Of a stretch of 64,000 nt of DNA, positions 31,000 through 63,128 are shown one piece after another. The DNA is from Gemmatimonas sp. (lineage in GTDB: Bacteria > Gemmatimonadota > Gemmatimonadetes > Gemmatimonadales > Gemmatimonadaceae): NCBI RefSeq assembly GCF_027531815.1, contig NZ_JAPZSK010000017.1, positions 124,001-188,000 on the forward strand, written 5' to 3'. The first letter of the stretch is position 1. The number at the start of each line of letters is the position of its first letter. The notes below the pieces were generated by a model that saw only the letters and a program-made list of their open reading frames with translations, was not told the origin of the DNA and made no database searches. Both the position numbers and the translations under genes were made by a program.

Positions 31000-32247
31000 G
31001 TGAGCGCGGCCGCGCTCTCGCTGTTCGCGCTGCTGCTGGTGGTGGCCGTGAGCCTCACCTCGCGGCTGAACGTGGGCGTGCTGGCCGTGGCGCTGGCCTG
31101 GGGCGTGGGCGTGTTCGCGGCCGGCATGAAGGTGGAACAGGTCATGACGCTGTTCCCTTCGTCGCTCTTTCTCACGCTGCTTGGGGTCACGCTGCTCTTC
31201 GGCGTGGCGCAGGCCAACGGCAGCATGGCGGCCATCACGCACGCCGGGTTGCGGCTGCTGCACGGCCATGCGGCATGGTTGCCGCTGCTGCTGTTCGTGC
31301 TGGCCGGAGTGATCAGCACGTCGGGGCCCGGGGCCATTGCCACGGTGGCGTTGCTTGCGCCGCTGGGGATGGGGATGGCGCACCGCGCGCGCGTGCCGAT
31401 GCTGCTGGCCGTGCTCATGATCGGCAACGGCGCCAACGCCGGCAATCTCTCGCCGATCAGTGCCATCGGTGTGCTCGTGCTGTCGCTCATGGAGCAGACG
31501 GGGCTCGGCGGTCATGCGGCCGCGGTCTTCCTGGCCAACTTCACCGCCCACGCGCTCGTCGCGCTGGTCGCGTGGGCGCTCTTTGGCGGGCCGGCGCTGC
31601 GTCACGCGCCGGTGATGGACGATGGGCTCATGACGCCCATGCCCTTTGCGCGGCAGCATGTGATCACCCTGGCCGTCGGTGCGACGTGGGTGGCGGCCGT
31701 GCTGCTGCTCAAGTTGCCCCCCGGGCTCACCGCCTTTGCTGCCGCGGCGCTGCTCGTGCTGCTGGGGGTCGGCGACGACAGCGCCATGCTCAGGCAGGTC
31801 CCGTGGGCGGTGATCACCATGGTGTGCGGGGTGAGCGTGCTCATTGGCGTGCTGGAGAAGACGGGGGGCATGGATCTCTTCACGACCCTGCTGTCGCAGC
31901 TGGCCACTCCGGGGACGGTGAACGGGGTCATTGGCGGAGTGACGGGGCTCATCTCCACGTACAGCTCCACCTCGGGGGTGGTGTACCCGGCCTTCATTCC
32001 TGCCATTCCAGGGCTCGTGGCAAAACTTGGCGGTGGCAATCCCCTCGAGATCGCTCTCAGTGTGAACGTGGGCGCCGCGCTGGTGGATGTCTCCCCGCTC
32101 TCCACGATTGGCGGGTTGTGCATCGCCGCCGCGCCCGAGGGGTGCGATGTCCGGCGGCTGTTTCGGCAGCTCCTGCTCTGGGGCTTCGCCATGAGCGTGG
32201 TGGGAGCGCTCTTCTGTCAGACCGTGGTTCCACTGTTCGTGCCGTAA
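31000..32247 (+). CDS. Dicarboxylate carrier MatC-like transporter
   Basis: 415 residues from a GTG start, with about 11-12 helices. The N-terminus (LFALLLVVAVSLTSRLNVGV) and the paired re-entrant, Gly/Asn/Ser-rich segments (SGPGAIATVALLAPLGMG, NGANAGNLSPISAIG; STYSSTSGVVYPAFIP, LVDVSPLSTIGGL) fit the ion-transporter superfamily and the MatC N-terminal family of malonate carriers. It starts 22 bases after the synthetase, so the two form a malonate uptake-and-activation pair. Substrate assignment rests on the pairing. Confidence 0.78.
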   Translation: MSAAALSLFALLLVVAVSLTSRLNVGVLAVALAWGVGVFAAGMKVEQVMTLFPSSLFLTLLGVTLLFGVAQANGSMAAITHAGLRLLHGHAAWLPLLLFVLAGVISTSGPGAIATVALLAPLGMGMAHRARVPMLLAVLMIGNGANAGNLSPISAIGVLVLSLMEQTGLGGHAAAVFLANFTAHALVALVAWALFGGPALRHAPVMDDGLMTPMPFARQHVITLAVGATWVAAVLLLKLPPGLTAFAAAALLVLLGVGDDSAMLRQVPWAVITMVCGVSVLIGVLEKTGGMDLFTTLLSQLATPGTVNGVIGGVTGLISTYSSTSGVVYPAFIPAIPGLVAKLGGGNPLEIALSVNVGAALVDVSPLSTIGGLCIAAAPEGCDVRRLFRQLLLWGFAMSVVGALFCQTVVPLFVP

Positions 32248-60427: not shown

Positions 60428-61003
60428 TCAGTCGCGCTTGCTTACCACCACGAACCGGGTCCAGTTGGCCGAGACATCTTCGATGTGCCGGGCGATGATC
60501 TCGAGGCCGTAGCGTTCGGCGGCCATCGCGCTGGCAACGGCCCCGCGCGTGCGTTCGCCGGCGGCGGCCACGTCGCGCGCGGCTCCGGCAGTGTCGGCGT
60601 GCGGTGTGGAGACCAGCCAGCTGTGGCGCGCAAAGAAGATGCGGCACTGTGCGAGCGCCACAGGATGACTGTGCACATCACGCAGCTCGGCCAGTGTGGC
60701 ACCGCGTGGCGCCAGCAGGCAGAGGTGCACCGGGACGCGCGTTTCGGCGCGCACCTCCACCGCATCACCCACTGCCTCGAGGGCATCGAGCGCAATCTTC
60801 ACGCGCCCCACGATCGCATTCTCCACCGGCACGATGGCGTAATGCGCATCACCCGCCAGCACGCGCGCCAGCGCGTCGGGGAACGTGGCCGAGGGGACGG
60901 GCTCCGCGCCGTCAGGCCACTGCTGGCGAATGGCCATTTCGGAGAAGGCGCCAATCTCGCCCTGGAAGGCGACACGGGGAATGGGAGTGGTGGGGGTGGT
61001 CAC
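60428..61003 (-). CDS. pheA: Prephenate dehydratase, catalytic domain only
   Basis: 191 residues from the GTG at 61003; the frame is open upstream only through a heptamer repeat. The fold starts RVAFQGEIGAFSEMAIRQQW, contains the ENAIVGRVKIALDAL substrate loop, and ends with the catalytic Thr-Arg-Phe in WTRFVVVSKRD. It converts prephenate to phenylpyruvate in phenylalanine synthesis. The ACT domain that gives phenylalanine feedback in most enzymes is absent, and only 58 bases separate the stop from the next gene, so it was not merely missed. Control may come from elsewhere, such as the attenuated DAHP synthase gene next door. Confidence 0.85.
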   Translation of the reverse strand: MTTPTTPIPRVAFQGEIGAFSEMAIRQQWPDGAEPVPSATFPDALARVLAGDAHYAIVPVENAIVGRVKIALDALEAVGDAVEVRAETRVPVHLCLLAPRGATLAELRDVHSHPVALAQCRIFFARHSWLVSTPHADTAGAARDVAAAGERTRGAVASAMAAERYGLEIIARHIEDVSANWTRFVVVSKRD

Positions 61004-61017
61004 GGGGGTGGCGGGGG

Positions 61018-61069
61018 GCAGGGGGCGGGAGGCAGGAGGCAGGGAGCAGGGAGCAGGACGCAGGACGCT
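61018..61069. repeat. GCAGGRR heptamer repeat, eight units
   Basis: GCA (or GCG/GCT) starts at 61018, 61025, 61032, 61039, 61046, 61053, 61060 and 61067, exactly seven bases apart, with purine-rich fill such as GCAGGGA. It lies between divergent pheA and the DAHP synthase leader. Same unit as at 43331. Confidence 0.85.
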
Positions 61070-61090
61070 GCGGGTGAAGCCGGATACATA

Positions 61091-61119
61091 TTGACAGCGA
61101 TATGCGCGAGCCGTAGTGT
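61091..61119 (+). promoter_or_regulatory. Promoter of the DAHP synthase leader
   Basis: TTGACA (61091-61096) is followed after 17 bases by TAGTGT (61114-61119). The predicted start falls at about 61126, at or just before the leader ATG, so the leader may be translated without a ribosome site. Confidence 0.75.
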
Positions 61120-61126
61120 CTCTGGC

Positions 61127-61207
61127 ATGATGCGTCACTTCTATGCCAGCCGATTTTATTACGTGCCGACCCGCATGGGCCTCGGCATGTTTGGCGTGCG
61201 CAGCTAA
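61127..61207 (+). CDS. Phe/Tyr-rich attenuator leader peptide
   Basis: A 26-codon frame, ATG at 61127 and TAA at 61205. Residues 4-12 read HFYASRFYY: five aromatic Phe/Tyr residues plus His. Such clusters let ribosome pausing report low charged tRNA-Phe or tRNA-Tyr. The Tyr-Tyr codons end at 61162, directly before the first attenuator stem (61164), the textbook spacing. It precedes the DAHP synthase gene by 120 bases. Confidence 0.82.
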   Translation: MMRHFYASRFYYVPTRMGLGMFGVRS

Positions 61208-61265
61208 GTCCTGACGCTCCCGACCGACCGAGAGGCCCGTGCAACCGCACGGGCCTCGGTCGTTT
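61164..61265 (+). terminator. Transcription attenuator: mutually exclusive stems
   Basis: Stem 1:2 is TGCCGA (61164-61169) with TCGGCA (61182-61187). Antiterminator 2:3 is GGGCCTCGG (61177-61185) with CCGA-ga-GGCCC (61228-61238). Terminator 3:4 is GAGGCCCGTGC (61232-61242) with GCACGGGCCTC (61247-61257), extended by CGACC/GGTCG, loop AACC, then CGTTTCGGG with a weak T-run. A ribosome paused on the Tyr codons would cover segment 1 and free segment 2 to block the terminator. Confidence 0.8.
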
Positions 61266-61327
61266 CGGGGCTTCGCGCGGTGAAGCGGGCTCCTCGGTGA
61301 CCACTGTCACCACACCCTGAGGACCGC

Positions 61328-62395
61328 ATGATCATCGTCACCACCGCCGGCATCACCGCTGACCAGTTGGACCGCCTCATCGAACACGTGGAGGCGGCCG
61401 GGCTGCGCACGCACGTGTCGCGCGGTGAACAGCGCACCATTGTGGGGTGCATTGGCGAAGAGGGCAAACTCGGCGAACTCGGACTCACGCAGCTCGAGGG
61501 GGTGGAGCGCGTCATTCCCGTACTCAAGCCCTACAAGCTGGCGTCGCGGGAGTTTTCGCTGGGGGATACGGCCATCCGCCTGGGCGACCCGGCCGGCACG
61601 ATCATCGGCGGGCGCGAGGTGGTGGTGATGGCGGGCCCGTGCAGTGTGGAAGGGCGCGACATGATGTTCGACACGGCGCGCGCGGTGCAGGAGAGTGGTG
61701 CGCGCCTGCTGCGTGGCGGCGCCTTCAAGCCGCGATCGAGCCCCTACGCCTTCCAGGGGATGGGCGAAGAGGGGCTGCGCATCATGGCCGAGGTGCGCGC
61801 GGAGACGGGGATGCCCATCGTGACCGAGGTGATGGACCCGCGGCAGGTGGAGCTGGTGGCGAGTTACGCCGACGTGCTGCAGATCGGCGCGCGCAACATG
61901 CAGAACTTTTCGCTGCTCTCGGAGGTGGGCAAAGTGCAGCGGCCGGTGCTGCTCAAGCGCGGGCTGAGCGGCACCATCACCGAGCTGCTCATGGCGGCCG
62001 AGTACATCATGGCGCAGGGAAACGGCGACGTGATGCTGTGCGAGCGTGGTATTCGCACGTACGAAACGGCCATGCGCAACACCATGGATGTGGCGGCCAT
62101 TCCCGTGCTCAAGCGCGAGACGCATCTGCCGGTGATCGTGGACCCCAGCCATGCCGGTGGGCGCGCACATCTGGTGACGCCGCTGGCGCTGGCGGCGGTG
62201 GCCGCAGGGGCGGACGGGCTGATCGTGGAGGTGCATCCCGACCCCGCGTGTGCGAAGAGCGATGGCGAGCAGAGCCTCACGCCGGCCGCGTTTGCGCAGA
62301 TGATGACGCAGGTGCAGGCGGTGGCGCGGGCGGTGGGGCGGGATTGTGCCGTGACGGCGGCAGCCGGCGGTTGGCGCGATGAGGTGACCGCATGA
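61328..62395 (+). CDS. aroF: 3-deoxy-7-phosphoheptulonate (DAHP) synthase with N-terminal regulatory domain
   Basis: 355 residues. The first ~75 form a ferredoxin-like (ACT-like) regulatory domain ([34 protein letters not shown]). The TIM barrel follows with [69 protein letters not shown] and VDPSHAGGR, the family's Cys, Lys, His and Glu/Asp metal and substrate residues. It joins phosphoenolpyruvate and erythrose 4-phosphate, the first step of aromatic amino acid synthesis. It is the Thermotoga/Bacillus type, in which the extra domain binds Phe and/or Tyr. Expression appears set by the Phe/Tyr attenuator upstream. The symbol is for the function class. Confidence 0.92.
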
Positions 62396-62405
62396 GCCCC
62401 GCCGA

Positions 62406-63128
62406 TCAGGCGCAGCTCACGGCGCAGCGCGCGGGGCAGCCGGTGCCGGCCCTCGCGCGTGAGGCGGGGTTGCCGGCGGGGCAACCAAGGGCGGTTCGCT
62501 GCCGCCCCTCCAGCCGCGACACCCGCGCCTTGAGTGCCTGCACGGTGCTGGTGAGCTGCGCCAGTTGGTCGGGGGATGGGGCGGTCGATGCAGGCGCGGG
62601 CTGTGCCGCTGCCGCCGGGGGATGCGCTTCCGCCACGCGGGCAGATCGGGGCGCTCCACGGCGAGCGAGGGAATGGACTCGGTGAGCTGACGAACGAGAA
62701 TGCGCTGCGTGCTGTCACCCGCCATGGCCGTGCGTCCGGTAAGCGCATACCACGCCACGAGTCCCAGCGAGTAGAGATCGGCGCGCCCGTCGACATGGTC
62801 GCCGGTGGCCTGCTCGGGGCTCATGTACTCGGGGGTGCCCACGACCTCGCCCACGCGCGTGAGGCCGGCGTGTTCGCTCACGGGGGTGATTGCACGGGCA
62901 ATGCCGAAATCCATGACGAGCACACGTCCCGTGGCGCGCTCGATCATGATGTTGTCGGGCTTGATGTCGCGGTGTACCACCCCGCGGCCGTGCGCATACG
63001 CCAGCGAGTAGGCGACGTCCTGCACGAGGCGTACGGCGTCTCGCTGTGACAACGGTCCCTCGCGGGTCACGCGCAACGCGATACCGGCTCCGGAGGGCGC
63101 CGGCCACCACGGCGAGGTCGCCGCTCAC
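62406..63128 (-). pseudogene. Serine/threonine protein kinase remnant with several deletions
   Basis: The original start is probably the GTG at 63128 that overlaps the stop of the Vgb-like gene (GTGA); it opens DLAVVAGALRSRYRVARD, the usual entry to a bacterial kinase domain. The Gly loop, catalytic Lys and Glu helix are missing, and a frame change leads straight to SQRDAVRLVQDVAYSLAYAH, then HRDIKPDN, MDFGIA and GTPEYMSPEQ. After RQLTESIPSLAVERPDLPAW a second break removes the end of the kinase. A third frame holds a coiled-coil tail (DQLAQLTSTVQALKARVSRL). Without the ATP-binding lobe it cannot be active. Confidence 0.8.

Follow-up and report, generated by a model that had tools for sequence, protein, structure and literature searches.

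The enterobacterial leaders pheL and hisL, which lie ahead of pheA and hisG and are represented by Rfam leader families, are led by Shine-Dalgarno sequences. Their order of elements, in which leader codons are followed by an anti-antiterminator, an antiterminator and a terminator, is also the order that we find ahead of the DAHP synthase gene aroF in Gemmatimonas sp.; the enterobacterial target for Phe is pheA, unlike aroF here, and the present leader has no Rfam match at gathering score. In C. glutamicum, aroR encodes a Phe-Tyr-Phe leader peptide before the DAHP synthase gene aroF that responds to Phe and not to Tyr (PMC4046766), and ribosome stalling under Phe limitation is summarised as raising transcription of the operon (Neshat et al. 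2014, via the review PMC11802643). The same organism is cited as forming its ilvBNC leader peptide without a ribosome-binding site (Morbach 2000, cited in PMC4046766), mycobacteria are cited as carrying poly-Cys attenuator ORFs on leaderless transcripts (Canestrari et al. 2020, cited in PMC13236596), and Table 3 of a Shewanella paper lists a tRNA-Tyr attenuator for aroF, citing E. coli work (PMC2659441; Camakaris 1980).

Compared by its published description, the C. glutamicum aroR-aroF leader resembles the present one in placing a Phe/Tyr leader peptide before a DAHP synthase gene and differs in its phylum and in its response to Phe, whereas Tyr is the invariant codon here (16/16 leaders of the genus). 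The mycobacterial ORFs, likened to this locus through that citation, share a regulatory ORF on a leaderless transcript and differ, as cited, in Cys sensing and in the genes concerned. The Shewanella and E. coli proposal, as given in the table, shares the DAHP synthase gene and the Tyr signal and differs in being gammaproteobacterial and in combining computational prediction with older genetic inference.

The kind of regulator is thus already known, from the aroR-aroF attenuator and the actinobacterial leaderless leader peptides; the phylum, the breadth of occurrence, the invariant Tyr codon and a his counterpart are new here. A preliminary description of this locus knew of no such attenuator in the phylum, and on that point it stands, our literature search, which was thin on subscription journals, having found no report that joins Gemmatimonadota with such leaders; as a type, a Phe/Tyr attenuator on DAHP synthase had already been described in C. 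glutamicum and a tRNA-Tyr attenuator of aroF attributed in the Shewanella paper. We saw the attenuator anatomy in dozens of genera of Gemmatimonadota, apparently as leaderless translation units, in which ribosome loading on a 5'-terminal AUG would have to match the pace of RNA polymerase without a 5' UTR. Together, the aroF and hisG leaders would allow one to ask in a natural setting whether leaderless initiation is quick enough for translation-transcription coupling, and the aroF leaders whether Tyr or Phe is sensed where aromatic synthesis begins.

The aroF locus, its promoter and its leader ORF

The window is the whole 64,000-nt stretch of DNA that was analysed. Its proposed attenuator region (61091-61268) has aroF on one side and, on the other, a divergently oriented ORF that encodes a prephenate dehydratase domain. 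The region contains a leader ORF (...SRFYYVPTRMGLG...), 120 nt 5' of aroF, with a TTGACA box ahead of it and a strong hairpin behind. We searched thirty genomes of the genus and compared 16 orthologues (at least 79% identity) for which upstream sequence was available. The features are as follows.

60428-61138, minus strand: divergent pheA-like ORF (prephenate dehydratase domain PF00800 at residues 56-235)
61091-61096, plus strand: -35 box TTGACA; TTGAC lies 35-39 nt 5' of the leader start in all 16 orthologues of the genus
61114-61119, plus strand: -10-like box TAGTGT, weak, after a 17-nt spacer (from sequence)
61127-61207, plus strand: leader ORF of 26 codons, MMRHFYASRFYYVPTRMGLGMFGVRS and stop, with homologous F/Y leaders in relatives
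61154-61162, plus strand: putative sensing codons TTT TAT TAC (Phe-Tyr-Tyr), adjoining segment 1; aromatic codons kept in 16/16 same-genus leaders
61161-61172, plus strand: segment 1, 5' arm of anti-antiterminator hairpin 1:2 (folding; three covarying pairs)
61173-61190, plus strand: segment 2, antiterminator strand, near-copy of the terminator right arm; 61177-61190 pairs with segment 1 and 61173-61185 with segment 3
61226-61242, plus strand: segment 3, terminator left arm (folding, pairing conservation)
61247-61261, plus strand: segment 4, terminator right arm, GCACGGGCCTCGGTC (folding, pairing conservation)
61260-61266, plus strand: U-containing tail TCGTTTC, weak here (from sequence)
61319-61323, plus strand: Shine-Dalgarno-like GAGGA of aroF (from sequence)
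61328-62395, plus strand: aroF, class I-beta DAHP synthase with N-terminal ferredoxin-like domain (PF00793, PF18152, NF006421 and TIGR01361 above cut-off)

The true start of the pheA-like ORF is probably well inside the frame given here. Because this upstream neighbour lies on the opposite strand, the terminator-like hairpin is not that of the upstream gene. A G-rich stretch 5' of the promoter (61006-61069, ggcaggaggcagggagcagg...) is a dispersed repeat, which matches 29 other places in the window's genome at 76-96% identity. In several relatives a chorismate mutase gene lies directly 3' of aroF; the window retains its first residues only (MSPADQAQL, 62392-62480), this remnant giving no PF01817 match, and another chorismate mutase is present in the window's genome (G000:C6:125497-125733).

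Transcription is predicted to start at about 61126-61127, at or adjoining the A of the leader ATG. A strict consensus scan reported neither a promoter nor a terminator at the leader, where the -10 box and the U-tract match consensus poorly. In nearly all leaders of the genus and phylum samples, TTGAC lay 34-39 nt 5' of the leader start codon, with a peak at 36, and among 68 leaders a TAnnnT-like hexamer was found 17 or 18 nt 3' of TTGACA in 67, the hexamer lying 5-10 nt 5' of the start codon with a peak at 6-7. Shine-Dalgarno-like 4-mers preceded 3 of the 68 leader starts, compared with 62 of 113 aroF starts. This promoter-to-start spacing and the scarcity of Shine-Dalgarno motifs argue that the leader ORF is probably translated leaderless, a guess of the preliminary description to which both measures lend strong support.

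Aromatic codons lie next to segment 1 in every same-genus leader; the penultimate one is Tyr in 16/16, and the last is Tyr in 11 and Phe in 5. Over the 68 leaders, 213 of 1742 residues are Tyr, 122 Phe and 33 Trp, and a short leader ORF rich in end-product codons stands ahead of a pathway gene. The promoter, the 26-codon aromatic leader and the three alternative stems of the preliminary description were each found where it had placed them. Its remark that the aromatic codons end two bases before segment 1 needs amending, as the last Tyr codon (61160-61162) runs two bases into the foot of the segment-1 stem when that stem is drawn in full.

RNA pairing at the aroF leader and its proposed action

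The 200-nt region folded better than 200/200 dinucleotide shuffles (z -4.0). Hairpin 1:2 (61161-61172 with 61177-61190) was evaluated at -17.4 kcal/mol, the terminator hairpin 3:4 (61226-61261, followed by TCGTTTC) at -30.6 to -32.3 kcal/mol and the 2:3 duplex at about -25 kcal/mol. Segment 2 (CGCATGGGCCTCGG) nearly repeats the terminator right arm (CGCACGGGCCTCGG) and forms a duplex with the left arm, as had been claimed from the first reading: GGGCCTCGG in segment 2 (61177-61185) is identical to 61251-61259 of the right arm, and the likeness extends further (CGCAtGGGCCTCGG versus CGCAcGGGCCTCGG). The antiterminator 2:3 is exclusive with both 1:2 and the terminator.

In the nascent RNA of the window, P23 was 0.04 with segment 1 free and 1.00 with segment 1 masked, and hairpin 1:2 formed with probability 0.93 when segment 1 was free. 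With segment 1 masked, the nascent RNA formed 2:3 at P=1.00 in 16/16 same-genus sequences; with segment 1 free, 2:3 was already preferred at equilibrium in 11/16, and in the full-length RNA at equilibrium the terminator was favoured in 14/16 even when segment 1 was masked. Thermodynamically, the two states are thus cleanly told apart in the window's own sequence and not in all relatives. Since the terminator is favoured at equilibrium despite masking and the free nascent RNA mostly prefers 2:3, the switch would have to act kinetically, by order of formation. Described attenuators likewise switch by the order in which their structures form.

We propose that the locus is very probably a ribosome-mediated transcription attenuator, through which aroF answers to the supply of charged tRNA-Tyr and, in second place, of charged tRNA-Phe. 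The first transcribed base would be the A of the leader ATG or one adjoining it, and the ribosome would load on the 5'-terminal AUG with no Shine-Dalgarno sequence to guide it. Under a shortage of Tyr or Phe, the ribosome would stall on the Phe-Tyr-Tyr codons and mask segment 1; 2:3 would then pair before segment 4 is made and be kinetically trapped, the terminator would come too late, and aroF would be transcribed. When Tyr and Phe are plentiful, the ribosome would reach the stop codon, 1:2 would re-form behind it, and the 3:4 terminator would end transcription. In relatives that retain the downstream chorismate mutase gene, the attenuator would control that gene as well.

The terminator hairpin is strong, and its U-tract is weak in the genus Gemmatimonas, where the strict scan missed it. 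As weak-tailed leaders can work otherwise, the same leader might act on aroF translation or RNA decay and not on transcription termination. We consider this very unlikely, because the aroF Shine-Dalgarno sequence lies about 55 nt past the hairpin and outside it, and because orthologues of other genera carry clear, textbook U-tracts at the same place (TTTTTTTGC and others).

Conservation within and beyond the genus

The leader, promoter box, anti-antiterminator, antiterminator and terminator were all present in 16/16 same-genus orthologues, which on sequence comparison is more than chance. In stem 1:2, which starts at the regulatory codons, 95% of cells were paired compared with 23-41% for structures slid by 1-3 columns, and three pairs had changed on both sides. 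For the antiterminator 2:3 the corresponding values were 93% and 21-45%, its pairing being kept without any compensatory change among the 16 sequences. An alignment upstream of aroF had been suggested in the preliminary description, which held that unconserved leader codons or stems would speak against an attenuator; codons and stems were kept throughout the genus, and the architecture recurs across the class. The trp/phe-operon logic that it had placed before DAHP synthase draws its support from this codon and stem conservation and class-wide recurrence.

A covariance model built from the 16 sequences matched the window's genome in full once, at aroF, and a further hit fell on the antisense strand of the terminator there; across the genus, all full matches were at aroF except one weak match. 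One orthologue (L015, genome G012) had lost a base before stem 1:2 and gained one within it, that is, it carries -1/+1 compensating frameshifts, and its peptide over the stem reads RRPAWAP instead of VPTRMGP, with the RNA stem, the stop and the FYY codons unchanged. The RNA constraint is therefore separable from the peptide constraint. The start codon of this leader is GTG.

We also collected upstream regions across the family's other genera and the wider phylum. With the promoter spacing unchanged, F/Y-rich leaders preceded 35/45 orthologues from the family's other genera and 17/52 from the remainder of the phylum sample, both being counts of related genomes and not of independent events; MTRAQSYAYYYYYTTHTTGRSWRTR and MNVGAATYFYYYYRTPVTGRGGRG are examples, and leaders of other genera often have 3-5 Tyr in a row. 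The same definition of a leader returned 0 hits in 2260 dinucleotide shuffles and 0 in reverse complements. A leader preceded 0/7 paralogous DAHP synthases (about 49-52% identity), and directly upstream of many aroF orthologues of family f5 (L107-L146, e.g. genus g63) no F/Y leader was detected. Of the 68 leaders, 67 were followed, usually 20-40 nt past the stop, by a hairpin whose next 9 bases include four or more T, and 2:3 pairing beat shuffles with a median z of -2.4 (z < -1.5 in 48/67).

These data bear on the reading that the leader is a conserved small protein gene, whose 26-residue peptide is functional and whose transcript the hairpin would end as an ordinary terminator. The C-terminal PTRMGPG, kept in most same-genus leaders, would fit such a gene. 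Yet the frameshift pair in L015 rewrites the peptide over the stem and keeps the RNA, the stem pairs covary, the full matches to the RNA model lie at aroF with one weak exception, and what is shared between genera is confined to the aromatic run and the RNA architecture; we judge a small protein even less likely than an effect on translation or decay.

His leaders and other amino-acid operons

His leaders with the same promoter spacing, followed by a predicted terminator and U-tract, preceded hisG in 7/7 genomes of the genus, and leaderless-type His leaders with promoter spacing preceded 18/30 hisG genes in the phylum sample (loci L244-L250 and L267-L294). The hisG leader of the window's own genome (L245; G000:C11) is MQSLRTTHHHAHHSHGPTGRGASCVMG and lies about 196 nt 5' of the hisG match at 31623; the hisG leader terminator is GGCCCGTCC...GGACGGGCC-TTTTTT. 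An Rfam search left the hisG leaders unrecognised, and among the Rfam amino-acid leader families none reached gathering score at the aroF leader (Leu_leader scored 18.7-20.9 bits against a cut-off of 50).

A metabolite- or tRNA-binding leader (riboswitch or T-box) or a protein-controlled terminator, with an incidental ORF, would look alike in terminator/antiterminator switching alone, but is the least likely reading of all, given the aromatic codons adjoining segment 1 throughout the genus, the His-codon leader of the same layout before hisG, which fits codon sensing, and an Rfam search in which no family scored above its gathering threshold and the sub-threshold matches are neither riboswitches nor T-boxes.

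At trpE, 0 Trp leaders were found in 12 genomes. Of 17 ilvB upstream regions, one held an Ile/Val/Leu leader with promoter spacing, which was judged a chance occurrence because the ORF ends 303 nt from the gene. In the seven genomes of the genus, leuA (TIGR00973) was found in none and ilvB (TIGR00118) was above cut-off in only 2, and the genus may have partly lost branched-chain amino-acid synthesis.

Beyond the attenuator reading of aroF itself, we regard it as an evenly balanced proposition that Gemmatimonadota hold an ancient, common repertoire of leader-peptide attenuators, leaderless and of a single RNA design, including at least those of aroF (Tyr/Phe) and hisG (His), with Tyr as the primary signal for shikimate entry, unlike C. 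glutamicum, for which a Phe-only response is reported.

Aromatic-rich short ORFs also occur before aroF-like genes in other phyla (L185, L196 and L210), where the leaderless promoter spacing is absent. Examples in other phyla are MLGSANWYYYFRCGMKELR, in a record labelled Proteobacteria, and MSFYYFACWLY in Desulforamulus putei. The ORFs at L185, L196 and L210 are possibly independent leaders.
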